A stretch of 44,156 nucleotides of DNA, taken from contig DFEB01000007.1 of NCBI GenBank assembly GCA_002368605.1, forward strand, positions 1-44,156, given 5' to 3'. The position numbers and the translations under genes are program-made. The stretch is from Treponema sp. UBA3813 (GTDB taxonomy: Bacteria > Spirochaetota > Spirochaetia > Treponematales > Treponemataceae). A model generated the notes under the pieces. That model was not told where the DNA came from and ran no database searches. It worked only from the letters and a program-made list of their open reading frames with translations. Every line of letters begins with the position of its first letter. Within the stretch, counting starts at the first letter, position 1. Below, in pieces: positions 14,521 through 40,791 of this stretch.

Positions 14521-14529
14521 TGATACAAT
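14521..14529 (+). promoter_or_regulatory. Extended -10 box six nt before the ABC exporter ATG
   Basis: TGA followed by TACAAT (14524-14529), with exactly 6 nt to the ATG at 14536. There is no Shine-Dalgarno. Transcription would start at or next to the A of the start codon, implying a leaderless mRNA. Confidence 0.55.
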
Positions 14530-14535
14530 CTTTAT

Positions 14536-16323
14536 ATGTCTGTCGTCCGAAAAATCACATCGGGCATGGAAAGACGCTACTGGACTTATACTTTCCTTTC
14601 GCCACTTTTCATGTTCGGTGAAGTCATCATGGAAACAACGATTCCCCTGGTCATGGCAAAAATCGTCGATGTGGGAATCAAAAACAAAGACTCAGATTTT
14701 GTCATCCGCTTCGGGCTTTTAATGGTCTTGATGGCGAGTTTTTCTCTTTTTTGCGGTGCCATGTGCGGCAGGATCTCTTCTCTTGCGGCTTTCGGTTTTT
14801 CTAAAAATCTCCGAAAAAAACTCTTCGCCAGGGTGCAGGACTTTTCTTTTTCAAATATGGATCATTTCGGCACTGATTCTTTGGTCACCCGCCTCACCAC
14901 TGATGTCACCAACTTGCAGAACATGTACCAGAACTGTATCCGCACGGCAGTCCGCTCCCCGATTATGCTCATTTTCGGAACGATTATGGCCTGTCAAATC
15001 AACGCCCGGCTGGCTCTTATTTTCTTTATTGTCATTCCTCTGCTTGCTACGGTACTTATTTCTATCGTGCATATCGTCTATCCCCGCTTCCGCCAGATGC
15101 TTAAAAAATACGACAATTTAAACCGAGTCGTTCAGGAAAATCTGATTGCAATCCGCGTGGTCAAGGCTTTTGTTCGCGGCGACCACGAAAACGCCAAATT
15201 TGACGAAATCGCCGAGGACTTGCAGCGCACTCAGGTGGGGGCCGAAAAAATCGTCATACTAAATATGCCAATCATGCACCTCATGGTTTACGGCTGCATT
15301 GTAAGCGCCCTATGGTTCGGCGGCAACATGGTCATTTCTGGCAAAATGCAGACCGGCGGGCTTATCAGTTTTATTTCTTATATCACACAGATTCTCATGT
15401 CGCTTATGATGCTTTCCCGCCTTTTTGTAATGTTCATCTTGAGCCGCACATCCCTTTCCAGAGTCATGGAAGTTTTGGATGAAGAGATAGAAATTCATAA
15501 TGCAGAATGCAAAATGCAGAATGAGGAGAGATGTTTAAGTCCCCTGCAGTCAGGTAGGCAAGTTTTAGAAGCTAGGGGCAAGTCTTTGAATGACATCGAG
15601 TTTTCTCATGTTTATTTCTCTTATGACAAAAAAATGGAGCATTCGGTTCTTAGTGACATTAATCTTTCGATTCCGCAAGGAAGCACAGTGGGAATTCTTG
15701 GCGGAACGGGAAGCTCAAAGTCTACATTGGTTCAGCTTATTCCCCGCCTTTACGAAGTGACTGAAGGCTCAGTCAAGGTGGGCGGAAAGGATGTCCGCCA
15801 GTGGAATTTGACGGACTTGCGCAAGAAAATCGGCTTTGTCTTACAGAAAAACACTCTTTTTTCAGGAACAATCGCCGAAAACCTGCGCTGGGGAAATGAG
15901 AATGCCTCGGACGAGGACTTAATTGCCGCCTGCAAGGCCAGCGATGCCCACGGATTCGTCACTTCCTTTCCCGACGGCTACGACACGGACTTGTCTCAGG
16001 GGGGAGTCAATCTTTCCGGCGGGCAGAAGCAGCGTCTTTGTATTGCCCGCGCCCTGATCAAAAAACCGGACATTCTTGTGCTTGACGACTCCACCAGCGC
16101 GGTGGACACGGCCACGGATTTACGAATCAGAAATGCCCTTCGTTCTTCCCTTCCTGCCACCACAAAGCTTATCATCGCCCAGAGAATCGCTTCGGTTCAG
16201 GACGCGGATTTTATCATCGTGCTGGACTCTGGCAAAATCAACGGAATCGGAAGTCATGACGAACTGATGAAGTCAAATCAGATTTACCGGGAAGTCTACG
16301 AATCCCAGATGAGTGAAAACTAG
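14536..16323 (+). CDS. ABC exporter half-transporter, degenerate-site subunit (MdlA-like)
   Basis: 595 residues: six membrane helices (about 20-300) then an ATPase domain. Walker A is G389-GTGSSK-ST, the signature LSGGQ is at 493-497, and the Walker B motif ends D517-D518 where the catalytic glutamate should be. The switch histidine is replaced by Q549. These are the marks of the inactive-site subunit of a heterodimeric exporter; the active partner follows after 8 bp. The domain linker (about residues 320-355) holds an unusual insertion, NAECKMQNEE through LEARGKS, encoded by tandem ATGCAGA-type heptamers that look like inserted repeat DNA. The substrate cannot be read from the sequence. Confidence 0.93.
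   Translation: MSVVRKITSGMERRYWTYTFLSPLFMFGEVIMETTIPLVMAKIVDVGIKNKDSDFVIRFGLLMVLMASFSLFCGAMCGRISSLAAFGFSKNLRKKLFARVQDFSFSNMDHFGTDSLVTRLTTDVTNLQNMYQNCIRTAVRSPIMLIFGTIMACQINARLALIFFIVIPLLATVLISIVHIVYPRFRQMLKKYDNLNRVVQENLIAIRVVKAFVRGDHENAKFDEIAEDLQRTQVGAEKIVILNMPIMHLMVYGCIVSALWFGGNMVISGKMQTGGLISFISYITQILMSLMMLSRLFVMFILSRTSLSRVMEVLDEEIEIHNAECKMQNEERCLSPLQSGRQVLEARGKSLNDIEFSHVYFSYDKKMEHSVLSDINLSIPQGSTVGILGGTGSSKSTLVQLIPRLYEVTEGSVKVGGKDVRQWNLTDLRKKIGFVLQKNTLFSGTIAENLRWGNENASDEDLIAACKASDAHGFVTSFPDGYDTDLSQGGVNLSGGQKQRLCIARALIKKPDILVLDDSTSAVDTATDLRIRNALRSSLPATTKLIIAQRIASVQDADFIIVLDSGKINGIGSHDELMKSNQIYREVYESQMSEN
15500..15527. repeat. Tandem 7-bp repeat inside the ABC exporter gene
   Basis: Four consecutive heptamers, ATGCAGA, ATGCAAA, ATGCAGA and ATGAGGA, lie in the linker between membrane and ATPase domains. 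The following DNA to about 15590 is also unlike transporter sequence and keeps the frame open. Confidence 0.75.
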
Positions 16324-16331
16324 GAGTCATT

Positions 16332-18122
16332 ATGCCACCTGTGAAAATGAGGGGAACTCAACGCCCGAAAAATACAAAAAAGACAATCCGAAGGCTGGTT
16401 TCTTACATGGGGCGATTTAAGTCCCTTTGGATTTTTGTTTTTCTCTTTGTGATTCTCTCAGCCCTTGCCGAAGTCGCCGGGGCATATTTGCTCAAGCCTG
16501 CGATTAACGATTACATTCTTCCCCTTATCGGAAAGGAAAATCCCGACCTTGAAGGCTTAATCCGTCTGGTTCTCACCATGATTGCAGTCTATGTCATAGG
16601 AGCCTTTTCTTCTTATGGCTCTGAACGAATTTTGATTTTTATCTCAACCAACACTCTCTGCAATATCCGGAAAGATTTGTTCCATCACATGGAAAAATTG
16701 CCTCTCCGTTATTATGACAGCCGCCAGCACGGCCTTTTAATGTCCCTCTATACCAACGACACTGACACGCTTCGGGAAATGTTCAGTATGAGCGTTCCCC
16801 AGCTTTTTTCCACTTTCTTTCAGGTTTCCGGCATTTTTATCATGATGTGCCTGCTTTCGATTCCCCTCACTTGTCTCATGCTTTTTACCATTGCCCTGAT
16901 TATGATTCTTTCAGCTCAAATCGGAAAGAGGAGCGCAAGGGCTTTCAGAAGCCAGCAGGAAAATATTGGCCGGGTGAACGGTTACATCGAAGAGTTGATT
17001 GAAGGTCAGCGGGTGGTCAAAGTCTTTACCCGCGAAGAAGAGGCAAAAGCCCGCTTTGACGAATTGAACGAGGATTTGCGCAAGGCGGGAACAAGCGCCA
17101 TGAGTTATGTTTCGGTGCTGGGACCCATGATGAACAATCTCAGCCATATTCAGTACGCCCTCACGGCCATTGCAGGAGCCTTTCTTGTCATAAAAGGCTT
17201 TACCGATGTGGGTACAATCGCAAGTTTTTTGCAGTCAACCCGTTCATTTTCCCGCCCCCTTACCCAGGTCAGCCAGCAGTTCAATTCGGTTCTGAATGCC
17301 CTTGCCGGTGCGGAGCGAATTTTCGCCGTTATTGATGAGGAAATCGAAAGCGATGAGGGCAATGTCGAAGTTGATTCTTCTTTTAAAGGGGATTTCGTAT
17401 TTGAGAATGTAAATTTCGGCTATGAGAAAAATATTCCCGTGTTAAAAAATATTTCCCTTTATGCCCACCCCGGAGAGAAAATTGCCCTTGTCGGCTCAAC
17501 CGGTTCCGGAAAAACGACGATTACAAATCTGCTCACCCGCTTTTATGACATCGAGGAAGGGCAGGGAAAAATCCTGTATGACGGACATCCCCTTAAAACG
17601 ATAAAAAAAGACTCCCTGCGCCGCTCCCTGGGCATGGTTTTGCAGGACACTCATTTGTTCACTGGAACGATTTTCGATAATATCCGCTACGGAAAGCTGG
17701 ATGCCACAAAAGAAGAAGTGCTTGCCGCCGCCAGACTGGCCAACGCGGATTACTTTATCAGTCACCTTTCTGAGGGCTATGACACGGTGATTACCGGCGA
17801 CGGCTCTTCTTTAAGTGCCGGGCAAAGACAGCTTTTGGCAATCGCCAGGGCTGCCGTGGCAAATCCCCCGGTTCTTATCCTTGACGAGGCTACCAGTTCC
17901 ATCGATACCCGAACGGAAAGGCATATTCAAAAGGGCATGGACTCTCTCATGCGGGGGCGGACTGTCTTCGTTATCGCTCACCGGCTTTCAACCGTGCGCA
18001 ATGCGGACGAAATCCTTGTTCTTGAAAAGGGAGAAATCATCGAGCGGGGAAATCACGACGCGCTTATGGAAAAACAAGGCCGGTATTACGATTTGTACAC
18101 CGGCGCCTTTAAGCTGGAATAA
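16332..18122 (+). CDS. ABC exporter half-transporter, catalytic-site subunit (MdlB-like)
   Basis: 596 residues with six membrane helices (about 30-310) and a full ATPase domain: Walker A 388-396 (GSTGSGKTT), Walker B ending D518-E519 and switch H550 are canonical. The signature reads LSAGQ (494-498) rather than LSGGQ. In heterodimeric exporters the degenerate ATP site is made from the first subunit's Walker motifs and the second subunit's signature, so the defects in this pair complement each other exactly. AGGAG overlaps the preceding stop region and the ATG is 8 bp after it, so the two are co-translated. The 3' end is convergent with the Bax-inhibitor gene, 10 bp apart. Confidence 0.94.
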   Translation: MPPVKMRGTQRPKNTKKTIRRLVSYMGRFKSLWIFVFLFVILSALAEVAGAYLLKPAINDYILPLIGKENPDLEGLIRLVLTMIAVYVIGAFSSYGSERILIFISTNTLCNIRKDLFHHMEKLPLRYYDSRQHGLLMSLYTNDTDTLREMFSMSVPQLFSTFFQVSGIFIMMCLLSIPLTCLMLFTIALIMILSAQIGKRSARAFRSQQENIGRVNGYIEELIEGQRVVKVFTREEEAKARFDELNEDLRKAGTSAMSYVSVLGPMMNNLSHIQYALTAIAGAFLVIKGFTDVGTIASFLQSTRSFSRPLTQVSQQFNSVLNALAGAERIFAVIDEEIESDEGNVEVDSSFKGDFVFENVNFGYEKNIPVLKNISLYAHPGEKIALVGSTGSGKTTITNLLTRFYDIEEGQGKILYDGHPLKTIKKDSLRRSLGMVLQDTHLFTGTIFDNIRYGKLDATKEEVLAAARLANADYFISHLSEGYDTVITGDGSSLSAGQRQLLAIARAAVANPPVLILDEATSSIDTRTERHIQKGMDSLMRGRTVFVIAHRLSTVRNADEILVLEKGEIIERGNHDALMEKQGRYYDLYTGAFKLE

Positions 18123-18132
18123 GCTTGTGTTA

Positions 18133-18873
18133 TTAGTTGTCTTTCTGTTTTCCGAAAAATCTCAAGAGTGTGAGGAAAAGATTAATGAAATCAAGGTAAA
18201 TTTCGAGAGCGGCCATGATTGAGATTTTCTTGTAGTCATTGTTGCCGTTTGAGTGAAATGCGATTTTCATGATTTTTTGAGAATCGTAGGCTGTGAGGCC
18301 TGTGAACACAATGACACTTACAATCGAAATGATAAAATCAAGAAGCGTTGTGTTGAGCTTTAAAAATCTGTTGAAAACAAATTGTACCACTGAGGCTATG
18401 ATGATTCCAACTAAAGCCATAAGCAGGTATCGTCCAAGAGTCATAAGGTTTCTTTTTGTGACGGAACCATATATTGCCATTGTGCCGAACATTGCCGCCG
18501 TAACTATAAAAGTCTTTGCGATTGATGCGAGTTTATATGCCGCAAAAATTGAAGACAGTGTGACACCGTTGATGAGGGCATAAAGAATAAAGCCTGCGAC
18601 AGCGGTTTGAAGAGAGATTTTTCGGATTGATGACGAGAGCAAAAAAACAAGGACTAATTCCAAAATGGCGAAAATCCAGAAACCAATTGCGTAGCCTCCG
18701 AAGAGAAAATCTCCGAAAGCAGTTCTGATTTGTTGGGTTTCGTCTGTAAAAACCATTTTTGCCGTGATGTATGCGGCAAATGCGCTGATTAAAAGGGCTA
18801 TTCCCATCCATGAATATGTATTTGTAACAAATTTTGCTTTTTCTGATTCACCTGCTGTGATGCTACGAGCCAT
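18133..18873 (-). CDS. Bax inhibitor-1 / YccA-YbhL family membrane protein
   Basis: 246 residues with seven predicted membrane helices starting after a short cytoplasmic N-terminus (SYSWMGIALLISAFAAYITA). The late segment F-T-G-L-T-A-Y-D-S-Q-K matches the conserved family motif that holds the proton/calcium-sensing aspartate. The family forms pH-sensitive ion-leak channels, and bacterial members are linked to protease and stress control. GGAGG is 8 nt before the ATG. It is divergent from the ankyrin gene. Confidence 0.92.
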   Translation of the reverse strand: MARSITAGESEKAKFVTNTYSWMGIALLISAFAAYITAKMVFTDETQQIRTAFGDFLFGGYAIGFWIFAILELVLVFLLSSSIRKISLQTAVAGFILYALINGVTLSSIFAAYKLASIAKTFIVTAAMFGTMAIYGSVTKRNLMTLGRYLLMALVGIIIASVVQFVFNRFLKLNTTLLDFIISIVSVIVFTGLTAYDSQKIMKIAFHSNGNNDYKKISIMAALEIYLDFINLFLTLLRFFGKQKDN

Positions 18874-18996
18874 ATTTGAAATCCTCCGAATTCATTCTAT
18901 ATCAATTCATGAGAAAAAACCACAGTTCTAGTTAATTCCTTTTTCATTTTTTCCGATATTCATAGGGAAGAAACTGTTTTTGGGAGAAAACGAATT

Positions 18997-21795
18997 ATGA
19001 AAAAAAACTTCGTAAATCTAATTCCGATTTTAATGCTTGTAACTTTTTTACTTGCTTGTTCTACAACGCCAAAAGAACCGTCAATTCAGGAACTTATAAT
19101 GCAAGGCCGTTACGATGAGGCGAAGGAAATCTTTAAGACAAAAACTGATATAAATGCTGTGGATGAATATGGTGATACGGCGCTACATGTTGCCGCTCGT
19201 GTCAATGAGGCGGATTTGGTCAGTTTCCTTGTTATAAAGGGTGCTGATACTGAACTCCGGAACAATGAAGGCGATACGGCGCTTCATGTTGCTATAAAAA
19301 ACAGCTCCATTGATGCGGCAAAAGTTCTAGCTATTGTTCACGGTGATATTTTCGCAAAAGACGGAAATGACAACAGTGCACTTGAGCTTGCTCTTTCAAA
19401 GGGGGCTGAATGGTATGACGCAATGATCACGCCTCAGACCGGAGAACTTAGGGATGTTGACGGTGAATCTATCGTCCATTATTTTGTTAAAACCCGTGAT
19501 GAGAAAGCGATTGACCGTTGTATTCAGGTGAATATTCCTCTTTCTGTAAAAGATAATTACGGACTGACTCCTTTGCATCTTGCTTTCCAAAACGCCCAGA
19601 ATGCGGCTTCAGTAAGAATTGCTGCCCGCCTTTTGCTGGCAGGTGCTGAACCTGTTCGTGGTGATTACGCCTATTTTGAGGACGCAGTTCGTACCCATAA
19701 CATGATTCTTCGCTTTAATGACGGCCAGACCCCGCTTCATCTTGCAACAATTGACGGACATACAGGCATTGTCGATTATATTCTCAACGAAAAAACTTCT
19801 GCACGAGTTTCAGATATCCTTGCTGCCCAAGATATCAGCGGAGCAACTCCGCTTCATGAGGCTGTCCGTTATGGCCGAGTCGATATCGCGCGCCTTTTAC
19901 TTATTAATGGTGCGAATGTAAATTCAATGGACTCAATTGGAAAGACTCCGATTCTTTTGATTATTCCGGGAAATGCCCAGCAGGAAATGTACCCGCTTTT
20001 GCTTCAGTATCGGGCAAATGTAAATCAAAAAGATATGTACGGAGACACTGTTCTTCATGTAGCAACGATGGCAAATGCTCCGATAAGCATACTTTCTCTT
20101 TTGGCAAGCAACGGTGCGGTCATTAATGAGAGAAATAAAGAAGGTGTAACTCCGCTTACGCTTGCAATTGAGTTGCAGCATCCAGAGCAGGTTAAGTTTT
20201 ATGCTCAGAATGGAGCCGATATTTATGCTGAGGACATGAAAGGCAACACTCCTCTTACAAAAGCTTTGGAATCAGAAAGCAGGGCAATGCTTGAGACTCT
20301 TATAACTACTTCAAATGCTTCTTCAACAGATTCCAGCGGAAACACAGCCCTTCACATTGCCGTAAGTAAAGACGCTCCTATAGAGTATATCCGTTATCTT
20401 GTTGAGGCGGGCGTTGATATTAACACACGCAATAAGAATGGAGATTCTGCCCTCTTTATTACCGTTCAGAAAAATCGGCGGGATGCGGGGGATCTTCTTC
20501 TTGAAAAAAATGCCGACATCTTTGCCACAAATACTCAGAATAATTCACCCCTCAGAATCGCATTGTCTCGCGGTGGGGAAGTTCAGGATTGGCTTATCAA
20601 TTCAAAAACATTGAATTCAACCGATGGAAGCGGAAATACCCCTCTTCATTATGCGGCGGAATGGCATTTGAACAACGCGATTGTTGCCTTGATTCAGAAA
20701 GGAGCAAAGATTCAGGCGCAGAATGCAAACGGTGAAAGTGCGATTTATTCAGCTGTAAAGGGTGGCGATGACAGCCCGTCAACAATAAATGTACTTGTTT
20801 CTAACGGACTTGTCTTAGATTCTAAAGACAAACTTGGCCGTGATAATCTTGGAAATACGCCTCTTCATGCGGCTGTCAAATGGAATACATTCAATACGGC
20901 AAAAACACTTATCGCACTGGGGGTTGATGTTGATGCCCAGAATTTAAGTGGAAAAACCGCTTTGAGTGATGCTTGCCGTTCTGCCAAAAAAGATATGGCA
21001 ATTCTCTTGATTCGCAATGGCGCAGATATTAATGCCACAGATGCAACCGGAAGAACAGTCCTTATGGACGCAATTTCCAGCAGCAATGAAGAAATGGTTC
21101 GGCTCTTGCTTGGTTATAAGGCAAATGTTCAGATTCAGGAAATGTCAGGACGGAATGCTTATCATGAAGCTGCTTTGACAGGAAATACGGGCATTATTAA
21201 TTTAATCAGAAAGGCTGGCGGAAATCCTCTTTCTCGTGATGCTGCTGGAGATACGCCATTCTCTTTGGTGTTAAATTCAGATATTTCTGTAATTCAGGCC
21301 GTTCTCGGAAATGATATGACGATAGCAGATTCTGACGGAAATACCCCGGTTCATATCGCCGTTTCTCGCCATGCAAGTAAAAAGACTTTGACGCAACTCC
21401 TTAACATGGGGTATCCAGCAAGTCAGCGCAATGGAAAAGGTATGACAGCTTTGAACGAGGCAGTTGCTAAAAACGAAAAAACTCAGGCTCTTGTTCTTCT
21501 TGAATATGGTGCGGATCCTTATATTGCCACAACTACTGGAGAAAATGCCCTTACGGCTGTATTCAAAACAAAAAACCTTGATATTCTTGATGCAATCGTA
21601 AAATACAACAGCATGAAAAGTGACCGGCAGGGCGACGGAATCCTTCACTATGCGGCGCGAAGCGCAGATCGTGACATAGTGGAGCACCTTGTCGCCTTGA
21701 AATTGGATAAAAATGCGGCGAATATTTCAGGCGAGACTCCGGCTCAAATGGCTTCAAGATGGGGCAGAAAAGACATAGCAGAATTACTTAAATAA
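18997..21795 (+). CDS. Ankyrin-repeat lipoprotein with 26 repeats
   Basis: 932 residues. Lipoprotein signal with C21 (LLAC). From about residue 50 to the end I count 26 ankyrin repeats, many with the GNTPLHxA core and GADIxAxN end. The repeats show higher-order order: a repeat ending in DIFA/DIYA/DPYIA is followed by a shortened repeat lacking the usual loop (2-3, 10-11, 13-14, 20-21, 23-24). This suggests growth by duplication of three-repeat blocks. It probably forms a long solenoid anchored to the envelope for protein binding; the partner is unknown. GGGAG is upstream. The 3' end overlaps the convergent methyltransferase gene by 12 nt. Confidence 0.93.
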   Translation: MKKNFVNLIPILMLVTFLLACSTTPKEPSIQELIMQGRYDEAKEIFKTKTDINAVDEYGDTALHVAARVNEADLVSFLVIKGADTELRNNEGDTALHVAIKNSSIDAAKVLAIVHGDIFAKDGNDNSALELALSKGAEWYDAMITPQTGELRDVDGESIVHYFVKTRDEKAIDRCIQVNIPLSVKDNYGLTPLHLAFQNAQNAASVRIAARLLLAGAEPVRGDYAYFEDAVRTHNMILRFNDGQTPLHLATIDGHTGIVDYILNEKTSARVSDILAAQDISGATPLHEAVRYGRVDIARLLLINGANVNSMDSIGKTPILLIIPGNAQQEMYPLLLQYRANVNQKDMYGDTVLHVATMANAPISILSLLASNGAVINERNKEGVTPLTLAIELQHPEQVKFYAQNGADIYAEDMKGNTPLTKALESESRAMLETLITTSNASSTDSSGNTALHIAVSKDAPIEYIRYLVEAGVDINTRNKNGDSALFITVQKNRRDAGDLLLEKNADIFATNTQNNSPLRIALSRGGEVQDWLINSKTLNSTDGSGNTPLHYAAEWHLNNAIVALIQKGAKIQAQNANGESAIYSAVKGGDDSPSTINVLVSNGLVLDSKDKLGRDNLGNTPLHAAVKWNTFNTAKTLIALGVDVDAQNLSGKTALSDACRSAKKDMAILLIRNGADINATDATGRTVLMDAISSSNEEMVRLLLGYKANVQIQEMSGRNAYHEAALTGNTGIINLIRKAGGNPLSRDAAGDTPFSLVLNSDISVIQAVLGNDMTIADSDGNTPVHIAVSRHASKKTLTQLLNMGYPASQRNGKGMTALNEAVAKNEKTQALVLLEYGADPYIATTTGENALTAVFKTKNLDILDAIVKYNSMKSDRQGDGILHYAARSADRDIVEHLVALKLDKNAANISGETPAQMASRWGRKDIAELLK

Positions 21796-22494
21796 AAGGA
21801 AAATCGTAGGCACTTTCTCAAAAGGGAGTGCCTTTTCTTTTTTCCAGGCGGTTATGGTTTTGGTCTTGATGAATTCCTCGCTGGTGGTGATTCCGCTGGC
21901 GACGCAGAGCTTTGTTTCCGCTCGGCAGGTTTTTAAAATCGCCTCAAACATTTTCTGATTGCGGTAGGGAGTTTCGATAAAAAGCTGGGTCTGGTTTTCC
22001 TTGTAGACTTTGTTTTCCAGCTGTTTGAGTCTAGCTTCCCGCTCTCCGTTCTTGACCGGAAGATAGCCGTTGAAGGCAAAATTCTGGCCGTTAAAGCCCG
22101 AAGCCATGAGAGCCATAATCATTGAGTTGGGGCCGACAAGGGGGACGACTCGCAAATTCTTTTTTTGAGCGATTTCCACCGCACGGCTTCCAGGGTCTCC
22201 AATGCATGGACATCCCGCGTCAGAAATCACTCCCATGCTCTCGCCTTTTTCCAGCGGAAGAAGAATTTTTGAAAGGTCGGCCTTTTCGTCAGTATGCTCG
22301 CTGAGCTCGGTGAAAGTGCAGTCGTCAATAGGAAAAGACTTATCAAGGGAAATCAAAAAACGCACGGCTGACTTGCGGCTCTCCACGATAAAATGCCGGA
22401 TATTCCTTACAATTTCGAGATTGTAAGAGGGAAGGACATTTTCGTTGGGAGTCTCTCCCATAGGGCAGGGGATTAGATAAAGGGCTGTTTCCAT
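21784..22494 (-). CDS. RsmI-like tetrapyrrole-methylase-family SAM-dependent methyltransferase
   Basis: 236 residues. Family motifs: LYLIPCPMGE at the N-terminus (RsmI has TPIGNL here), SDAGCPCIGDPGSRAV for cofactor binding, LVGPNSMIMALMASGF, and FIETPYRNQKMFEAI. RsmI methylates C1402 of 16S rRNA. This protein belongs to the variant group with PMGE in place of IGN, so the substrate is less certain. There is no Shine-Dalgarno; an extended -10 box lies six nt before the ATG. Stop codon and 12 nt overlap the convergent ankyrin gene. Confidence 0.85.
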   Translation of the reverse strand: METALYLIPCPMGETPNENVLPSYNLEIVRNIRHFIVESRKSAVRFLISLDKSFPIDDCTFTELSEHTDEKADLSKILLPLEKGESMGVISDAGCPCIGDPGSRAVEIAQKKNLRVVPLVGPNSMIMALMASGFNGQNFAFNGYLPVKNGEREARLKQLENKVYKENQTQLFIETPYRNQKMFEAILKTCRAETKLCVASGITTSEEFIKTKTITAWKKEKALPFEKVPTIFLLFK

Positions 22495-22500
22495 GAGAAA

Positions 22501-22509
22501 ATTATAGCA
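22501..22509 (-). promoter_or_regulatory. Extended -10 box six nt before the methyltransferase ATG
   Basis: On the minus strand TGC-TATAAT, then TTTCTC, then ATG. The consensus extended -10 places the transcription start on the start codon. The same arrangement, with only one base changed, precedes the DUF763 gene. Confidence 0.65.
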
Positions 22510-22571
22510 GATTATTGGGAAATTAGGAATTAGAGATGAGCAATTAGCGATTAAGGGAAAATTTTCCTTTC

Positions 22572-22599
22572 AATCCGTGCGAATCTGTGATAATCTGTG
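22572..22599. repeat. AATCTGTG array with 10-bp period
   Basis: AATCCGTG at 22572, AATCTGTG at 22582 and 22592: three units spaced exactly 10 bp, ending 26 nt before the next start codon. Upstream (22515-22557) lie TTAG/ATTAG-rich degenerate repeats. Confidence 0.65.
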
Positions 22600-22624
22600 G
22601 ATAGTTTTTTTTGGAGACATCTAT

Positions 22625-23583: not shown

Positions 23584-24807
23584 TTAAACATCGTCCATGC
23601 AGGTTCTGCCGCCCCATTCTTTGCTGTGGGCTTTTTCGTGGGCGATTGTGGCTTCAAAGTCTGCCAGAGGCTCGCAGTTGGCTTCGATTTGGCGGGCTGT
23701 GGCGTTTAGGCGGCGGATACACTCGCTTTTGTCATTGTAGCCCAAGCGTGATTTTTCGATTGCGTCGCCCAGGACGCGGATTGACTCGTCGTAGATTTTT
23801 AAGGGAACAGGGAAGGGGTGGCCGTCTTTTCCTCCGTGGGCAAAGCTGAATCGTGCCGGGTCGGTGAAGCGGCTGGGAGTTCCGTAAATCACTTCGCTCA
23901 CCAAAGTAAGGCTCTGTAGCGTTCTGGGACCAAGCCCCGGCGTGAGCAAAAGGCTCTCAAAATCCTGATTGTTGCTTTCGTAGGCCGTGGCAAGAACGCT
24001 TCCCAGTCGCTTTAAATCCACATCTTCTGCCCGGACATCGTGATGAGCGGGCATTCTTAGATTCCTGTCATTGCGCAGCTCAAAGGTCAGGGCATATTCT
24101 TCATTTGAAATTTTCGCAATCTCCTTCATCATTTTGTCGGGATTTTCCTGAGTCAGGGAAAGAATACTTCCCCGTGTTTCCTTGGCGGCCGAGTCCGTGA
24201 GATTTAAGATTTTTCCCTGATTTTCGCCAGTGACGCCTGAGTGAGGCTCTTCCACAAAGGAGCGGAGATTTTCCGAAGACCAGTGATAGCGGCGGGCTGT
24301 GCGGGTGGCCGTGTTCATTCCCTGCTGGACTACCACCCAGTCGCCCTGGTCGCTCAGGACGAAATTGTGCATGTAAAGCTGGAATCCGTCCTGAACTGCG
24401 TTTCCGTCAACTTTTGCGGTGAGCCGGCTTGCGTTTACGAGGGAAGTTCCGTCAAGGCCTGTGGCATCTGCCAGATACAAAAGCTCATCCGGCGTTTTTC
24501 GCGAGTATTTTCCCCTGCCGCCGCAAATACAAAGGCCGAATTCACGCGCCCGCTCGTTGATTCCCCGTTTCAAAGCGTACATTACGCTGGTGGTGATGCC
24601 GCTTGAATGCCAGTCCATGCCCAAAACCGCCCCCAGAGACTGAAACCAGAGGGGATCTGAAAGGCGGGTGAGAACTTCTTTTTTTCCGTAATTTATGAGC
24701 AGGGCTTCGATTATTTCTGTTCCCAAAAGCTTCATTCTGTCGGCGAGCCACTTGGGAACCACGCCCGTGTGAAGGGGTAAATCGGCATAGCCTGAGCGTT
24801 TGAGCAT
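23584..24807 (-). CDS. DUF763 domain protein
   Basis: 407 residues, full length for DUF763. The N-terminus LKRSGYADLPLHTGVVPKWL is the family hallmark, followed by the GMDWHSSGITTSVMYALKRG motif, a Cys pair (CICGGRG, about residue 94) and LLLTPGLGPRTLQSL, which looks like a helix-hairpin-helix DNA-binding motif. AHHDVRAEDVDLKRL is also conserved. The family is mainly archaeal with scattered bacterial members and has no proven function; the hairpin suggests nucleic-acid binding. It has no Shine-Dalgarno and an extended -10 box six nt before the ATG. Confidence 0.9.
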   Translation of the reverse strand: MLKRSGYADLPLHTGVVPKWLADRMKLLGTEIIEALLINYGKKEVLTRLSDPLWFQSLGAVLGMDWHSSGITTSVMYALKRGINERAREFGLCICGGRGKYSRKTPDELLYLADATGLDGTSLVNASRLTAKVDGNAVQDGFQLYMHNFVLSDQGDWVVVQQGMNTATRTARRYHWSSENLRSFVEEPHSGVTGENQGKILNLTDSAAKETRGSILSLTQENPDKMMKEIAKISNEEYALTFELRNDRNLRMPAHHDVRAEDVDLKRLGSVLATAYESNNQDFESLLLTPGLGPRTLQSLTLVSEVIYGTPSRFTDPARFSFAHGGKDGHPFPVPLKIYDESIRVLGDAIEKSRLGYNDKSECIRRLNATARQIEANCEPLADFEATIAHEKAHSKEWGGRTCMDDV

Positions 24808-24813
24808 GAGGAA

Positions 24814-24822
24814 ATTATAGCA
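24814..24822 (-). promoter_or_regulatory. Extended -10 box six nt before the DUF763 ATG
   Basis: Minus strand: TGC-TATAAT, then TTCCTC, then ATG. Consensus extended -10, no ribosome binding site, leaderless mRNA predicted. Confidence 0.65.
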
Positions 24823-25476: not shown

Positions 25477-25485
25477 TGCAATAAT
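25477..25485 (+). promoter_or_regulatory. Extended -10 box seven nt before the aldo/keto reductase ATG
   Basis: TGC-AATAAT (AATAAT at 25480-25485), then 7 nt to ATG 25493. No Shine-Dalgarno. The first base departs from consensus, so this is a weaker member of the leaderless set. Confidence 0.45.
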
Positions 25486-25492
25486 TTTCAGC

Positions 25493-26365
25493 ATGGAATT
25501 TAAATCACTCACATCAACTTACACTCTTGCCAACGGAAACAAAATTCCCTGCGTGGGATTCGGCACCTGGCAGAGCGAGGACGGCGATGAGGCTTACAAT
25601 GCTGTTCTTTCAGCCTTAAAAAACGGATACCGCCACATTGATACGGCAACGGCTTACGAAAATGAAGAGAGCGTCGGGCGGGCAATCAATGACTTTTTGC
25701 GTGAGAGCGACCTTAGCCGGAGCGAGCTTTTTATTACGACGAAACTCTGGAACGCTGACCACGGCTACGAGGCAACAAAAAAAGCTATAGACCTTTCCCT
25801 TAAAAAAATGAATCTTGATTATCTTGATTTGTACCTGATTCACTGGCCCAATCCCCTTAAATTCCGTGACTGCTGGGAAGAAACGAATGCGGGAAGCTGG
25901 AAGGCTATGGAAGAGGCTTACGACGAAGGAAAACTCCGCGCCCTTGGTCTTTCAAATTTCCGTCAGCATCATATTGAGGCTTTGGAAAAAACGGCAAAAA
26001 TCAAACCTATGGTTAATCAGCTTATGGTTTGTCCCGGTCAGGCACAGCGGGAGCTTTGCGAATTTTCCAGAAAGCGGGGTATGATAATCGAAGGCTACAG
26101 CCCCATGGGAACAGGAAAAATCTTCTCCAGTGAAAAGATACAGGCTCTTTCAAAAAAATACGGGCGCACAATCGCCCAGATTTGTATCCGCTGGAGCCTG
26201 CAGGAAGGAGCGATTCCCCTGCCTAAAAGCGTTCATGAAGAGCGGATTATTGAGAATGCAAAAGTCTTTGACTTTGAGCTTGAAAAATCTGACTGCGATT
26301 TGATTGCAGGTCTTACAGGCCTTGAAATCCGCCAGAACAGAAATCCTGACGAGGCTCCCTTCTAA
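25493..26365 (+). CDS. Aldo/keto reductase
   Basis: 290 residues, NAD(P)H-dependent carbonyl reductase. The catalytic tetrad is complete: D50, Y55 (HIDTATAYENE), K84 (TTKLWN) and H117 (YLIHWPNP). The cofactor motif near residue 250 is IPLPKSVHEERI. It is closest in pattern to the 2,5-diketo-D-gluconate reductase/methylglyoxal reductase group. It shares one base with the following phosphatase gene (TAATG), so the pair is translationally coupled. Confidence 0.93.
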   Translation: MEFKSLTSTYTLANGNKIPCVGFGTWQSEDGDEAYNAVLSALKNGYRHIDTATAYENEESVGRAINDFLRESDLSRSELFITTKLWNADHGYEATKKAIDLSLKKMNLDYLDLYLIHWPNPLKFRDCWEETNAGSWKAMEEAYDEGKLRALGLSNFRQHHIEALEKTAKIKPMVNQLMVCPGQAQRELCEFSRKRGMIIEGYSPMGTGKIFSSEKIQALSKKYGRTIAQICIRWSLQEGAIPLPKSVHEERIIENAKVFDFELEKSDCDLIAGLTGLEIRQNRNPDEAPF

Positions 26366-33056: not shown

Positions 33057-33073
33057 GAATTCCGTTCTTTTTT
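33055..33073 (+). terminator. Weak terminator after DUF554
   Basis: AAGAA/TTCTT stem of 5 bp with loop TTCCG followed by T-run. Short stem, so low certainty. Confidence 0.35.
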
Positions 33074-33084
33074 AAATTTTTCCC

Positions 33085-33130
33085 TTGAATTCTCTTTCGT
33101 TGTCATTTATACTGATTTCATAGTTATAAT
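33085..33130 (+). promoter_or_regulatory. One or two promoters for the sugar-ABC ATPase
   Basis: TTGAAT (33085) -17 bp- TATACT (33108-33113) is well spaced. TTGTCA (33100) -19 bp- TATAAT (33125-33130) is a second, longer-spaced option. Confidence 0.5.
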
Positions 33131-33151
33131 CCCTTGCCACAGGAGGAAAAA

Positions 33152-34270: not shown

Positions 34271-34292
34271 TCTTTTAGAAAGATAGCTGGTT

Positions 34293-34327
34293 TCCCCTGC
34301 AAGTTTTTCTTGTAGGGGATTTTTTTT
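34293..34327 (+). terminator. Intrinsic terminator of the ABC ATPase gene
   Basis: TCCCCTGCAAG with CTTGTAGGGGA (one G-U), then eight T. The -35 box of the next gene lies inside its right arm. Confidence 0.88.
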
Positions 34328-34338
34328 GCATGTATAAT
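34310..34338 (+). promoter_or_regulatory. Promoter overlapping a terminator, giving a leaderless mRNA
   Basis: TTGTAG (34310-34315), 17 bp, TATAAT (34333-34338), then 6 nt to GTG 34345. The predicted transcription start coincides with that GTG. Confidence 0.6.
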
Positions 34339-34344
34339 TACATT

Positions 34345-35172
34345 GTGAAAAAGAAGTCACTCCTTTTCTTTTTTCTGATTTTTTCTGCGATTATTCTCTT
34401 GACTTATTTGCTTGTAAGCAAGACCGTGATGACTGCTGACAAAGTTGCCTATAAGTCGTCATTAAATCTTTATTTTAACGGCCGTTATCTTACGGACAAA
34501 GAACTTTCAAAACTCCCTGAAGTCAAAATCAACTTTAATAATTACGATTCATTGAGCCATGTGTTTCCCCAAGATGGGTTGGAATCAGTTTACAGGTTAA
34601 GTCACTATTACAATTACAACAGTAAATTTTTTCGAATGGAAGTGGACTCAAGCGGCAAACAATGGGTCCATCTTTCAATGGATGCAAAGGAATATGCACA
34701 GGGGCATAAGCATCTTAAGAATTATCTGAGAACGCAAAAATTTTTGTCTATAGAAAATCCATTTTCCTATAATTTTAGTTTCTGTTTTTTCACTGACAAA
34801 ACTAACGAGAGCGTTCAGATTTTTCATGTTTTTGTTTACGCCCCCATTAAAAAATCTGTGTTTCAAATTGTCTGTAAAAATGGACTTGTGACAGTAAAAT
34901 TCCCTGTGGAATTAAATGAAAAATCATTTGAGTCAGAAACAATCGTCCTTGGTGCTTATAGTCTGGGTGATGTCGGAAAAATTTCAGTTCAATCTGACGG
35001 AAAAACCGTGCTGATTTATTACAACGAAAAACTGGTTTTTGATAAAGATATTCTGCCAGAAATCACAAAAAACAATGCTCCATTCTATATTGCCAATGGT
35101 CTTTACCCTGCCGAAGGAAGTCAAGGATTCAGTGAGATTTTCCTCAGTGATATAGATTACAGCGGCAGATAG
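34345..35172 (+). CDS. Membrane-anchored protein of unknown function
   Basis: 275 residues from GTG 34345. An in-frame ATG at 34330 lies upstream of the -10 box and would not be in the transcript if the predicted promoter is used. The N-terminus (KKKSLLFFF, then a helix to about residue 27) is a signal anchor or uncleaved signal. The rest is extracytoplasmic, rich in Phe, Tyr and Ser, with beta-like spacing. No domain is recognised. It ends 2 bp from the convergent response-regulator gene. Confidence 0.75.
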   Translation: MKKKSLLFFFLIFSAIILLTYLLVSKTVMTADKVAYKSSLNLYFNGRYLTDKELSKLPEVKINFNNYDSLSHVFPQDGLESVYRLSHYYNYNSKFFRMEVDSSGKQWVHLSMDAKEYAQGHKHLKNYLRTQKFLSIENPFSYNFSFCFFTDKTNESVQIFHVFVYAPIKKSVFQIVCKNGLVTVKFPVELNEKSFESETIVLGAYSLGDVGKISVQSDGKTVLIYYNEKLVFDKDILPEITKNNAPFYIANGLYPAEGSQGFSEIFLSDIDYSGR

Positions 35173-35174
35173 TA

Positions 35175-35786: not shown

Positions 35787-36982
35787 AAGCCTTTCCTGTT
35801 TTTTTCGATATTATCTGGAAGCTTTATGATGATTTCCGTTCCGTCGTTCTCTTCGCTGATAATCTGAAGAATTGCGCCGATTGATTCTGCCCGGCTTTTC
35901 ATTGAATGAAGCCCAAAATGCATTTCTTTTCCTTCCTGAAGGATTTTTTGCGGAATTCCGATTCCGTCATCGGTGACATAAATTACACTTCCATCAAAGC
36001 CTTTTTCGTGCCCGATTACTACGGAACAGCAAGTTGCCTCAGAATGATTCTTGATATTTACAAGGGCTTCCTGTACGATTCTGAAAATATTAAGGAGAAT
36101 TTTCTGGTCCTTAATGGGCGTTATGTTTTCATCAGAGCGGAAACTGCACTGAATTTTTCCGTTGAATTCAGAATTGAACTTGTTGCAGAGAAATTCCATT
36201 AGGTTTTCCAGCTGAACGGATGATTTTTTGAGTTTTAAGTCTGGGGGAATGAGGTCGTAGCATATATTCCTCAGTTCTTGAATGCAATTTGTGCAAAGGT
36301 TGACAATATGATTTTTTTTGGAAATTAAATCTTCGCCTGTTTTTATATGTTCTGCTTCAAATTGTATGGTTCTGATTTCTTGAGCTATTGTGTCGTGGAG
36401 TTCATTTGAAATCTGGCCTCGCTCGTTTTCGATGGCGTTTAGAACCGTGTCTGTGAATTTTCGGTTTTCGGAAAGCTCTTTTTTCGTCTGCTTAGATTTA
36501 AAGTGGAGAAAAATAAGAAGAGTTATGAAAATAACTAGAAGAAGCAAGGCGAAAAGAATCAAATAAAAGCGGTTTTTTATGGACTGGCTGTAAAATTTTG
36601 TGTTGAATTCAGACAGTTTGAGGAGATTCTGGTTGATATCAGTGGCAACTCGGACAAAATCGCCGTAATTCTCATCAGGTTCTATTCTTTTTAGAAGTTG
36701 TATATTTGTTTTTAGCCTCTGAACTAAAAGATAGTAATCCCTGGATTTTTTGCAATAATCCTTGTATTGCTTTGATTCTATGTATTGAAAGCAAACGGAC
36801 TCAAAGGATTCCGCTGACTGCTTGAAAAGGGAATAGTTTCCAGTTGTTATGAATGATTCAAGGTCATTCGCAAACTCATAGCCACCCTCGAATAATTTTT
36901 GGCTGTCGCTTAAATAATCTTCTGAAGCAAAAATAGGTGATATAAAAATTGATGTTAAAAGAAGACAGTAGAATAGTTTCAT
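35783..36982 (-). CDS. Sensor histidine kinase (HisKA_3 type)
   Basis: 399 residues from ATG 36982, which begins a clear signal peptide (MKLFYCLLLTSIF, ending FASED). An upstream ATG at 37006 is possible. A mostly helical periplasmic sensor of about 115 residues, unlike any family I know, is followed by a membrane helix (about 138-161) and HisKA_3 with H196 in NELHDTIAQE. The ATPase domain has EALVNIKNHS, DDGIGIP and HFGLHSMKSRAES. It is the cognate kinase for the downstream regulator. No Shine-Dalgarno is obvious. Confidence 0.9.
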   Translation of the reverse strand: MKLFYCLLLTSIFISPIFASEDYLSDSQKLFEGGYEFANDLESFITTGNYSLFKQSAESFESVCFQYIESKQYKDYCKKSRDYYLLVQRLKTNIQLLKRIEPDENYGDFVRVATDINQNLLKLSEFNTKFYSQSIKNRFYLILFALLLLVIFITLLIFLHFKSKQTKKELSENRKFTDTVLNAIENERGQISNELHDTIAQEIRTIQFEAEHIKTGEDLISKKNHIVNLCTNCIQELRNICYDLIPPDLKLKKSSVQLENLMEFLCNKFNSEFNGKIQCSFRSDENITPIKDQKILLNIFRIVQEALVNIKNHSEATCCSVVIGHEKGFDGSVIYVTDDGIGIPQKILQEGKEMHFGLHSMKSRAESIGAILQIISEENDGTEIIIKLPDNIEKNRKGL

Positions 36983-37084
36983 CTCAAGGATGATTATTTT
37001 TACCATGAAATCGACGGAAAAACAATAGAAGTTTTCTCTATCGCCTTCTGAAAGTGCTTGGTTTATAATTTTCAATTAACTTAT

Positions 37085-37097
37085 GTACTAATAGTAC
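37085..37097. promoter_or_regulatory. Perfect palindrome between divergent genes, candidate operator
   Basis: GTACTA-A-TAGTAC in the gap between the sensor kinase and the divergent lipoprotein. LuxR-type regulators bind such short dyads. The assignment to the adjacent regulator is inference. Confidence 0.5.
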
Positions 37098-37115
37098 TGT
37101 AAATAGGGGAAAAAT

Positions 37116-38765
37116 ATGAAACTAGCTAAAAAACTGATGTTTTCATTCGTAATGGTTTTTGCCTTTCTTTTATTGTCATGCGCTAATGAGGATGAAAAAT
37201 ACGAAACACCAGCTTCTGTAGATTATTCCAATGTTGCAGAAGGCGATATGCTTACAATTGACGGAGTAGAGTATGTTGTTCTTGCAAATACATATAAGTC
37301 ATCTTCTTCTCGTTCAATTGTTGAATCTTCACGAAGAGTAAACCTTAGCGGTAATTTCAGTGAAAAAGTAAAGGATTTGGTCTATCGCTATATGGACTTA
37401 GCGGATGTAAAGACAATGCTTTCTGAGATAGGAGTCACAGAATACATACAAGTATGGTCTGTGAGCGCAAGCCAGAATCAGATTTACCAAAAAGATGGAA
37501 AAATAATTGCATCTGACTACCTGTATTTTTACAATAAAAACGGCATACGAATCGCAAACTTGCAACTTAGATGGACTTCAGAGAAGTTGTATGCGGCAAT
37601 AAATCCTTCTGATACAACCCCTATTGCATTTTTTGAAAGTGAAGCTGGACTTTCCAAAAATAATTCAGAAGCAGATGCGGACTATAACTATACTGATTCT
37701 GATGTTGATATTGATAAATTTGCCGAGTTCAGAAAAAACTATGATGCTCAGGCTATTGTCGTTCGTTCCTCTCCAGAGAATGTGAGTGCGAGCCGAATTA
37801 CTGAAAAGAGAAGGGCTGATTCTGGTTTTACATATACAAACGAAGGAAAAGTTAAGAGCTACGCCCTGAGTGACAGAGAAAGCTATACCGTATACGCACT
37901 TTATCACTGGATTGATTCGGAGGCGCGCTCAAGCCTTAAATACAGTCCTGAAAAGACTTCTGGAACAAACAAAAGTTTTTATTTTGCCCTTAATCAGGCT
38001 AATAAAGATATGAAGGAAATATACAGAGCCTCTGAAAGTATTACTGATTTAACTGATACTTCAGCTCCTGGAAAAGTTAAGGTAACAGTAAAATCTACTG
38101 GAATGGGGTCAAAATCTGCTGATCCAAAATCAACAGAAAGCACAAACTCCATTGATGTAGAAAGTTTCTCAGGCTCTTCGACAAAAACACTAATCGCTTT
38201 TGCTACCCAGATTTCTGGTTCAGCTATAACTTCTCCTGTAAAGTATAGGATAAAAATTAAAGAAAAGAACTATAAAAAAGAAAAATCATTTTTGGAGCAA
38301 AGCGTAGAAGTGGAAAAATACGAATATGATTCAGTGGCTTCCGAAAGTTCCGGTTCACCTGTGTTTGCCAGCACCTCTACTTCGTTAAAAAAGGAAGAAA
38401 GCATCCAATACACCATGGCTGAAGCAATCTCTCAGTTTATGAGCGATTATGTTTATTTCGCCACTGACACGGTTACAATCAACGAGTATGAAATTCCTTC
38501 GTATATTCTGGTGAAAGCACCTTTTCCTGAAGGAGCGGATCATAACAAGGATTACACTCTTGTAAAACTTGTACCAGAAGAAAAAAGCGTAACTGTTGGT
38601 AGCACAGAACATGCGGCTTTCGTATACAACCTGGAGCAAAGTGAAACTGTAAGCGGAGTAAGCGGAATGAAAGTTCCGTCATTTGTAAAGACTTATTCAG
38701 ATGCTTTTGAGAAAGTTTTCGGTTCTGGCTATCAGAATGACGCAGCTTTCCCATCGGCATCGTAA
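37116..38765 (+). CDS. Lipoprotein of unknown function next to a two-component system
   Basis: 549 residues. Lipoprotein signal with C22 (LLLSC). Ser-rich, with a conserved-looking early segment EGDMLTIDGVEYVVLANTY (about 42-60), a central linker TDTSAPGKVKVTV and a lysine/glutamate-rich region. No recognised domain. AGGGG lies 6 nt before the ATG. It is transcribed divergently from the kinase and probably controlled by that system. It could be the sensed or regulated envelope protein. A terminator follows. Confidence 0.8.
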   Translation: MKLAKKLMFSFVMVFAFLLLSCANEDEKYETPASVDYSNVAEGDMLTIDGVEYVVLANTYKSSSSRSIVESSRRVNLSGNFSEKVKDLVYRYMDLADVKTMLSEIGVTEYIQVWSVSASQNQIYQKDGKIIASDYLYFYNKNGIRIANLQLRWTSEKLYAAINPSDTTPIAFFESEAGLSKNNSEADADYNYTDSDVDIDKFAEFRKNYDAQAIVVRSSPENVSASRITEKRRADSGFTYTNEGKVKSYALSDRESYTVYALYHWIDSEARSSLKYSPEKTSGTNKSFYFALNQANKDMKEIYRASESITDLTDTSAPGKVKVTVKSTGMGSKSADPKSTESTNSIDVESFSGSSTKTLIAFATQISGSAITSPVKYRIKIKEKNYKKEKSFLEQSVEVEKYEYDSVASESSGSPVFASTSTSLKKEESIQYTMAEAISQFMSDYVYFATDTVTINEYEIPSYILVKAPFPEGADHNKDYTLVKLVPEEKSVTVGSTEHAAFVYNLEQSETVSGVSGMKVPSFVKTYSDAFEKVFGSGYQNDAAFPSAS

Positions 38766-38784
38766 AATAACCGCTAATATCACT

Positions 38785-38820
38785 AAATCCCCTGAAAGTT
38801 TTCCTTGCGGGGATTTTTTT
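38785..38820 (+). terminator. Intrinsic terminator after the lipoprotein gene
   Basis: Outer stem AAATCCCC/GGGGATTT of 8 bp, inner GAAAG/CTTGC-like pairing, and a seven-T tail. Confidence 0.82.
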
Positions 38821-38833
38821 GCAGGACATTTTT

Positions 38834-38858
38834 CTCCGTGCGCTCAGTGTACTCTGTG
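38834..38858. repeat. CTCTGTG array with 9-bp period
   Basis: CTCCGTG at 38834, CTCAGTG at 38843 and CTCTGTG at 38852, exactly 9 bp apart, then AGAAATTTTT. This closely parallels 12341-12373. Confidence 0.65.
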
Positions 38859-38867
38859 AGAAATTTT

Positions 38868-38876
38868 TGATAAAAT
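38868..38876 (+). promoter_or_regulatory. Extended -10 box seven nt before the RNase gene
   Basis: TGA-TAAAAT (38871-38876), then 7 nt (CCAATCC) to ATG 38884. No Shine-Dalgarno. Confidence 0.5.
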
Positions 38877-38883
38877 CCAATCC

Positions 38884-40791
38884 ATGAAAAAAAATTCTGT
38901 CGTGATATATAAAAATCTTCCTGCCCTTGTGGGAGAGCGGGATGGAGATAAATTTCTAGTAAACTGGTGCGTCTCTCGTGCCACTGCCTCCGGGAAAAAG
39001 GCCGTTTATGCCAGCCAGAAAGTCCGTGAAAAGGATGTGATTATTTTGTGCGAGAGCGAGGCTTCCTCAATTGATGCCCTGCTTGATTTCGCTGAATCGG
39101 CTCTGGCTGAGAATTCCGAGGTGAAAAGTCAGATTTCCGAAACCCACGAGCTTTTGCTGAGCGATGACGAGACTGCCAAAGCAGAGCAAGGCTTTAAGGA
39201 CTTGGTGGAATTGCTCCGGGGAGAGTTAAAGGCAAATGAATCATGGGGGCTTTATTCTGCCCTAAAATCCTCTTTTGAATTTGAAGAAATCCTTCGTGAC
39301 GGGCAGATTTTCTTTATTCCTCGTTCAATAGAAAAAATCGATGAACTGAAAAACAAGGCGTTTGAGAAGGAGCACGCTGAGGAAATCCGTGCGGCCTTCA
39401 TCGAGCGTCTTAAAGCCAAAAATCTTCTTCCCGAAGACTCAAAATATATGGGTGATGTTGAGGCTTTGGCTCTCGGCACCACTGACAAAAGCAAGACCAT
39501 GAAGGACGCGGGCTTTAAGGAGACTCCCGAAAAGGCTCACAAACTTCTTCTTGATACAAAAATCTGGAATATTACGCGAAATCCTTATCCGATGAGGCTT
39601 GGTTTGAGCGCAAAAAGCGCCACTGTGTCTCTTGGAACTCCTCCTGAAGAAGAAAGAATCCGCCTTCCGGGGGTGTCCTATGCCATCGACAGCCAATGGT
39701 CAACAGATCCTGACGATGCCATTGCCTTTGACGGAGAATTTTTGTGGGTTCATATAGCTGACCCGGCATCTTTTGTTGCACCGGATTCTGAAATTGACAA
39801 GGTGGCGCGGGGCAGGGGAGCGACTCTCTATCTTCCTGAAGGAACTGCCCGCATGTTGAGCGAGGATTGCCTTGAAGACTATGCCCTTGGCTTGCGGGAA
39901 GAAAGCCGTGCCCTGTCATTTAAAATCAAACTGGGTGAAAACGGTGATGTGGAAGATTGTGAGGTTTTGCGCACGATTGTTGATGTAAAGCGCCTCACTT
40001 ACGAAAAGGCTGATGAACTTAAAGACAGCCCTGAGCTAAAGCCTCTTTTTGATATCGCCCGCCGTAACGCTGAGCGACGGAGCAAGGCCGGGGCGGTGAA
40101 CATTTCTATCCCGGAAGTGCATATTTCCGTAAACCCTGAGACAAAAGAAGTGACTTTTGAGCCTGTTGCCCACTGTGAAAGCGGTGAAGTGGTTAGGGAA
40201 GCCATGGTTCTGGCAGGTGAGGGAGCTGCGAAATTTGCCTTTAAAAACAATCTGCCCTTCCCATTTATTTCTCAGGAGCTGCCTGAAATCCCGAAAGAAA
40301 TTCCAGAAGGCTTGGCCGGCCAGTTCCGCCTGCGTAAGTGTATGCGTAAGCGCAATGTTAACATTACTCCGGCAAGTCACGCGGGTTTGGGCGTTGGAAT
40401 GTATTCCCAGGTTACTTCCCCCTTGCGCCGTTACGGGGATTTACTGGGGCATGAGCAGCTCCGCGCTTTTTTGAAAGGGGAAAAACTCATTGACAAGGAC
40501 ACCATGCTCATGCGTATGAGTGAGGGGGATGCCGCCATGCAGGCCAGCAAAAAAGCCGAGCGCAACAGCCGTCAGCACTGGACTTTGGTTTACCTCTTGC
40601 AGCACCCCGACTGGCAGGGCGAGGCAATCTGTGTGGACAAGCAGGCTGGTAGAGCCTTGTATTTTATCCCCCAGTTCGGCATGGAAACTACGATTGGCGG
40701 TGAGGCTCCGGTGGATTTGAACGGAAAGGTCACCCTCAAGACTGGCAAAATCGACCTGCCCAATCTTGAAGTGACTTTTTCATTTGTATAA
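38884..40791 (+). CDS. RNase II/RNB-family exoribonuclease
   Basis: 635 residues, close to RNase II length and shorter than RNase R. The RNB catalytic segment has D269, D275, D277 and D278 (IDSQWSTDPDDA), followed by HIADPASFV. The later motif RNVNITPASHAGLGVGMYSQVTSPLRRYGDLLGHEQL is also RNB-specific. It degrades RNA 3' to 5'. The N-terminal cold-shock domains are hard to see and may be divergent. The gene has no Shine-Dalgarno and an extended -10 box seven nt before the ATG. Confidence 0.92.
   Translation: MKKNSVVIYKNLPALVGERDGDKFLVNWCVSRATASGKKAVYASQKVREKDVIILCESEASSIDALLDFAESALAENSEVKSQISETHELLLSDDETAKAEQGFKDLVELLRGELKANESWGLYSALKSSFEFEEILRDGQIFFIPRSIEKIDELKNKAFEKEHAEEIRAAFIERLKAKNLLPEDSKYMGDVEALALGTTDKSKTMKDAGFKETPEKAHKLLLDTKIWNITRNPYPMRLGLSAKSATVSLGTPPEEERIRLPGVSYAIDSQWSTDPDDAIAFDGEFLWVHIADPASFVAPDSEIDKVARGRGATLYLPEGTARMLSEDCLEDYALGLREESRALSFKIKLGENGDVEDCEVLRTIVDVKRLTYEKADELKDSPELKPLFDIARRNAERRSKAGAVNISIPEVHISVNPETKEVTFEPVAHCESGEVVREAMVLAGEGAAKFAFKNNLPFPFISQELPEIPKEIPEGLAGQFRLRKCMRKRNVNITPASHAGLGVGMYSQVTSPLRRYGDLLGHEQLRAFLKGEKLIDKDTMLMRMSEGDAAMQASKKAERNSRQHWTLVYLLQHPDWQGEAICVDKQAGRALYFIPQFGMETTIGGEAPVDLNGKVTLKTGKIDLPNLEVTFSFV

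Follow-up and report, generated by a model that had tools for sequence, protein, structure and literature searches.

Genes with a -10 box at the start codon

The stretch analysed here (the window) is the 44,156-nucleotide (nt) contig DFEB01000007.1 of Treponema sp. UBA3813, one of 83 contigs in a genome of 2.6 Mb. Five of its genes, encoding an ABC exporter, a methyltransferase-like protein, a DUF763 protein, an aldo/keto reductase and an RNase II-like (RNB) protein, begin with an ATG located 6–7 nt downstream of a -10 hexamer (Table 1). A TGn extension stands directly upstream of the hexamer in 5/5 of these genes, and reading of the sequence revealed no AGGA, GGAG or GAGG at the position of a Shine-Dalgarno (SD) sequence. 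These start-proximal boxes very probably represent sigma-70 type promoters, and the transcripts are predicted from the sequence to be leaderless mRNAs, which use a minor but established mode of translation initiation. The host organism, as judged by sequence identity, is an uncultured Treponema of gut/rumen type, because the matches of the window DUF763 protein are ruminant Treponema contigs (identity up to 99%) and T. ruminis (81%).

Table 1 Start regions of predicted leaderless genes, of the GTG case and of leadered genes in the window.
Feature	Coordinates	Strand	Gene and remarks
TGA-TACAAT, 6 nt, ATG 14536	14521..14538	+	ABC exporter gene 14536-16323; Pfam-supported product
TGC-TATAAT, 6 nt, ATG 22494	22492..22509	-	Methyltransferase-like gene 21784-22494
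TGC-TATAAT, 6 nt, ATG 24807	24805..24822	-	DUF763 gene 23584-24807; Pfam-supported
TGC-AATAAT, 7 nt, ATG 25493	25477..25495	+	Aldo/keto reductase gene 25493-26365; hexamer weak
TGA-TAAAAT, 7 nt, ATG 38884	38868..38886	+	RNase II-like (RNB) gene 38884-40791; Pfam-supported
TACACT, 7 nt, ATG 13839	13826..13841	+	Gene 13839-14489, no Pfam match; added leaderless candidate
TATAAT, 6 nt, GTG 34345	34333..34347	+	Sixth case, unsupported; alternative start ATG 34330
SD-containing start of map	41710..41729	+	M24 peptidase gene 41727-42491; Peptidase_M24 (Pfam); AGGAG then 12 nt; leadered control
Start of oadG	8362		OAD_gamma (Pfam); SD sequence TTTGGAGGAATTATG
Start of second ABC gene	16332		SD sequence TAGGAGTCATTATG

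The five ATG genes had been singled out in a first-pass annotation of the window, and all of them read as described there. Their product names agree with Pfam, although the match of the methyltransferase is slightly under the cut-off (27.6 vs 27.8 bits). The gene set itself had to be revised: an ATG member at 13839 had been missed, and a sixth gene, listed with a GTG start at 34345, did not hold up (see below). The TACACT box of gene 13839 (13826-13831, plus strand) overlaps a TATACT on the minus strand (13822-13827), which suggests that one bidirectional -10 element may serve both this gene and the divergent DUF4230 gene at 13126-13779.

Genome-wide excess and spacing

The genome was sampled in 624,656 bases outside the window (24% of the genome). 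Genes were called with a dicodon gene caller, which was used instead of a simpler codon-usage caller that yielded only 311 genes. It returned 479 genes (29 in the window and 450 outside); 438 of the latter had a usable first ATG and 12 were dropped. Chance expectation was taken from dinucleotide-preserving shuffles (300 runs) and from shifted 3-position windows at 14–50 nt. Of the 438 genes, 66 had TAnnnT placed 6–8 nt ahead of their first ATG, compared with a mean of 31.2 and a maximum of 46 in the shuffles and a shifted mean of 35.6. The excess was steeper for stricter motifs, with 38 genes for TAnnAT (shuffled 9.5, shifted mean 14.6) and 21 for TGnTAnnnT (shuffled 1.5 with a maximum of 6, shifted mean 3.5). 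Enrichment at 6–7 nt over shuffled upstream regions had been set beforehand as the test of the proposal, and the 24% sample passed it. Box genes beyond the shifted mean number about 30 (7%), or about 47–50 (11%) when SD genes, which have hardly any room for the box, are removed from the expectation.

The distance distribution was examined in the 230 SD-less genes. TAnnnT occurred in 37 genes at 6 nt, 25 at 7 nt, 5 at 8 nt and 14 at 9 nt, against a background mean of 7.5 at 0–5 nt and 5.7 (range 1–13) at 10–45 nt. Apart from the rise at 9 nt, the counts in these 230 genes gave no sign of a broad class with very short leaders. In the whole genome, TGnTATAATn6ATG occurs 22 times, while neither the reversed control nor the n16 pattern occurs at all.

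Pfam matches were examined for 20 of the 52 stronger candidates. They include an EngA/Der-type GTPase, PurD, a DnaX-like protein, a member of the EPSP-synthase family, an HrpB-type helicase, MnmA-type and endonuclease III type proteins, a QueD-like protein and TrkA. No functional theme was recognizable among these 20, which are mixed housekeeping genes, 3 of them without a match at 1e-6.

An SD sequence was present in 208 of the 438 genes and a box at 6–8 nt in 66; no gene had both and 164 had neither. Put differently, SD sequences were found in 0/66 box genes and 208/372 other genes. The coexistence of two initiation modes in one genome, raised in the first-pass annotation, is borne out by these numbers, and oadG, the ABC ATPase gene and map, named there as having ribosome binding sites, all carry an SD.

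Anatomy of the probable promoters

Outside the window, TG precedes 21 of the 66 start boxes, compared with 36 of 391 TAnnnT motifs at control positions. The extended -10, proposed as the shared feature, is accordingly present in all five window genes first listed and in only 21/66 boxes elsewhere; it is frequent, not defining. A -35 element (TTGACA at 15–19 nt) was then scored with the five window boxes included, giving 25 boxes with TG and 46 without. Among the TG-less boxes, 4/46 have a perfect TTGACA and 6/46 a five-of-six match, against 0.2% and 2.8% of shuffles, respectively. Matches of five or six positions were thus found in 10/46 TG-less boxes vs 1/25 boxes with TG vs 3% of shuffles. 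Mean -35 matches were 3.32 with TG, 3.78 without TG and 2.98 in shuffles; the earlier proposal that the extended -10 replaces a good -35 appears here as a trend only (TG vs no TG, P = 0.07). A properly spaced -35 ahead of the start box is the best evidence in the sequence that the boxes would act as real promoters.

GTG 34345 and other non-ATG starts

The gene at 34345 had been included on account of a TATAAT and a -35. The hexamer is indeed present 6 nt before the GTG, but the best -35 readable by eye is TTGTAG at 17 nt, with 3/6 matches, and the TG abuts the hexamer, the n being missing. The protein has matches in 4 of 59 genomes including its own, none of the foreign ones extending over the N-terminus; its start is therefore not fixable and its membership is unsupported. 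A terminator-like hairpin was noticed by eye in the 34290-34347 region. Its T run stops 2 bases before ATG 34330 and the TATAAT starts 5 bases past the run, so that a terminator and a possible promoter nearly abut.

No -10 excess was detected at the GTG and TTG candidate starts of called genes, in a comparison of low power in which many candidates are not true starts. A raw scan returned five GTG/TTG codons 6 nt after TATAAT, of which two lie inside genes, two in uncalled open reading frames, and 34345 alone sits close to where a called gene begins. The putative leaderless signal is visible here with ATG only, at low test power. Single genes, for example 25493 or 34345, could be chance matches.

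Range in the genus and phylum

Across 98 genomes of the genus, TGnTATAATn6ATG was counted 1763 times vs 390 for the n16 spacing, any ATG after the motif being taken, gene start or not; n6 exceeded n16 in 97/98 genomes. The n16 pattern was added as the control because reversal of the motif alters more than its spacing.

A phylum scan with the reversed control covered 246 genomes, 224 of them with a match, and 92 of the 246 rows were summed by hand-picked family. The genus had 311 matches vs 18 in the control (20 genomes), and another genus from its family had 71/4 (5 genomes); in the rest of the family, one 1.1-Mb genome gave 0/1 and 11 other genomes gave 83/10. The other groups gave 71/13 (f3, 5 genomes), 1/0 (f2 and f4, 3 genomes), 49/29 (f6, 23 genomes), 35/0 (f9, 3 genomes), 36/0 (f12, 9 genomes) and 11/3 (f29, 12 genomes). 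In these 92 rows, the genus, the second family genus and some groups show a clear excess over the reversed control, and the remaining groups a weak one or none. In f22 both the counts and the controls were raised.

Conservation and switching among orthologues

For each window gene, the comparison used the 30 best-scoring loci, counting that of the own genome, in 59 Treponema genomes; the 52 DUF763 loci came from named genomes. In the T. ruminis DUF763 locus (L047), TATAAT stands at 9 nt. Counts were made after removal of duplicate and short upstreams. At the ABC exporter, TAnnnT at 6–8 nt was found in 28/30 loci (shifted mean 4.0, max 7) with an SD in none. The corresponding values were 19/30 for RNB (shifted mean 3.0, max 6; SD in 0), 17/29 for the methyltransferase (1.6, max 4; SD in 2) and 19/42 for DUF763 outside Bacteroidota (1.8, max 5; SD in 8). 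The map/M24 control had the box in 0/29 loci (2.7, max 6) and an SD in 24/29. For gene 13839, TAnnnT stands 6–8 nt before the conserved ATG in 8/8 loci, its own included, at 32–100% identity. The aldo/keto reductase has the box in 5/9 loci (shifted mean 1.0, max 4), after removal of 21/30 rows as paralogues or uncertain starts. Its four closest orthologues (74–97% identity) carry TATAAT at 6–7 nt, and the four loci without the box comprise the own gene, whose hexamer is AATAAT, and three that have an SD instead (56–70% identity). Since these three have an SD and others the box, the initiation mode can switch between orthologues. In summary, the arrangement is kept in 28/30 loci at the ABC exporter, in 8/8 at 13839, and in about half of the loci for RNB, the methyltransferase, DUF763 and the aldo/keto reductase.

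The nine Bacteroidota DUF763 loci (L083-L091, 8 distinct upstreams) differ in their motif: TAnnTTTG, which we take to be the Bacteroidota promoter box, lies 4–8 nt before the protein-start ATG in 9/9. More doubtfully, DUF763 may be leaderless again in this second phylum, under a promoter of another type. An inverted repeat, CTAA-n5-TTAG, overlaps TAnnTTTG in 8/9 of these loci and is extended to GCTAA-n5-TTAGC in three; it could be an operator on a putative leaderless promoter. Three Fibrobacter-titled contigs (L074, L076, L079) encode DUF763 proteins 66–69% identical to the Treponema protein and are possibly mislabelled or contaminated assemblies.

Proposed mechanism and alternatives

In the proposed mechanism, a housekeeping-sigma (sigma-70 type) promoter would place its -10 element 6–7 nt ahead of the start codon, with upstream recognition probably provided by the TGn extension in about one third of cases and by a good -35 in some others. 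Transcription by RNA polymerase typically begins some 7 nt past the -10. Given this distance, +1 would fall on the A of the AUG, leaving the mRNA leaderless. The 5'-terminal AUG would then be translated without an SD, presumably by direct recognition by the 70S ribosome and initiator tRNA as in other bacteria. We infer the RNA 5' end at the AUG and this ribosomal mechanism from the motif, its spacing and excess, the promoter context and the conservation at some orthologues. Taken as a prediction, the leaderless reading put forward in the first-pass annotation is supported by the excess at 6–7 nt, by n6 > n16 in 97/98 genomes and by the orthologue geometry with its SD control.

Several observations weigh against this interpretation. 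The counts rise at 9 nt as well (14 genes). The home-made gene caller always takes the first ATG, so some of the called starts are wrong. The mutual exclusion of SD and -10 box is partly geometric, being forced where both need the same bases. The box is absent in 11/30 loci for RNB, 12/29 for the methyltransferase, 23/42 for DUF763, 4/9 for the aldo/keto reductase and 2/30 for the ABC exporter, and the loci are best-scoring relatives rather than independent samples.

Among the alternatives, the one that fares best regards the AT-rich box as a leader element, such as an S1-binding or unstructured ribosome site, on an mRNA that starts farther upstream. The 164/438 genes with neither SD nor box point to further kinds of non-SD initiation, to SDs of lower strength or to misplaced starts. 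However, a leader element would not require the 6–7 nt spacing, the TGn extension or TTGACA at promoter spacing, and we consider this explanation improbable. Still less likely is a real promoter with a misassigned start codon, in which case a leadered mRNA would be translated from a codon farther downstream. In favour of this, several orthologues of RNB and of the methyltransferase begin some codons off the query start, but DUF763 proteins are conserved from their first residues and the ABC starts agree with the query to within one codon in 30/30 loci, with the box 6–8 nt from that ATG in 28/30; some of the other candidates, for example PurD and TrkA, match their Pfam profiles from residue 1–3. 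For the class as a whole, coincidental boxes in AT-rich intergenic DNA are hardly credible. A lone hexamer is frequent (for TAnnnT the shifted 3-position windows average about 36/438), but 66 were observed, TGnTAnnnT reached 21 vs 1.5 shuffled and 3.5 shifted, and the boxes are conserved at orthologues.

A further suggestion can be made, tentatively and with some doubt: leaderlessness may be a selected, gene-specific trait in Treponema, which the ABC exporter and 13839 would hold through >40% protein divergence, while genes such as the aldo/keto reductase would alternate within the genus between this mode and an SD start. The analysis yields a concrete set of predicted leaderless genes, open to testing, in a large host-associated genus, and natural pairs of leadered and leaderless orthologues would allow the switch of initiation mode to be studied. 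It also bears on the annotation of gene starts, as SD-reliant callers can misplace such starts.

Comparison with known systems

The predicted leaderless genes of Treponema belong to a known kind, because predictions in Spirochaetes and leaderless mRNAs in Leptospira precede them. A description of leaderless genes in Treponema was not found among the matches listed in open-licence literature. Leaderless (TA-led) genes were predicted in 6/18 Spirochaetes genomes, at 1.8–6.9% of genes (Zheng et al., 2011; PMC3160421). Like the present genes, they have a Pribnow box whose first T lies about 12 nt ahead of the start, and in several low-GC genomes, Lactococcus among them, it is preceded by TG; the main text of that survey does not contain the name Treponema (PMC3160421). 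Kasugamycin is reported there to leave leaderless mRNAs unaffected (PMC3160421). The share of 7–11% of the sampled genes is slightly above that of the survey, which used another method (PMC3160421). Differential RNA sequencing of another spirochaete, Leptospira interrogans, revealed about 440 mRNAs starting ≤10 nt from the start codon (PMC5243855). Those leaderless mRNAs are experimental and no -10 motif was identified, whereas here the promoter is clear and leaderlessness is predicted from the sequence (PMC5243855).

In mycobacteria, 71 of 97 expressed orthologues are leaderless in both species, and a -10 hexamer or an SD is likewise present in a mutually exclusive manner (PMC4633059). Mycobacterial leaderless transcripts begin with AUG or GUG and make up nearly a quarter of the total, whereas here only ATG gave the signal, in a test of limited power, and a smaller share of genes would be affected (PMC4633059). 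Leaderless GUG has been reported to be poor in E. coli, to which the ATG-only signal, given the low power of the test, is closer than to mycobacteria; leaderless initiation elsewhere has been ascribed to 70S binding aided by IF2 (PMC4633059). Relative to these systems, the analysis adds how widely the arrangement occurs in the genus, how the probable promoters are built, and which genes conserve the arrangement or switch.

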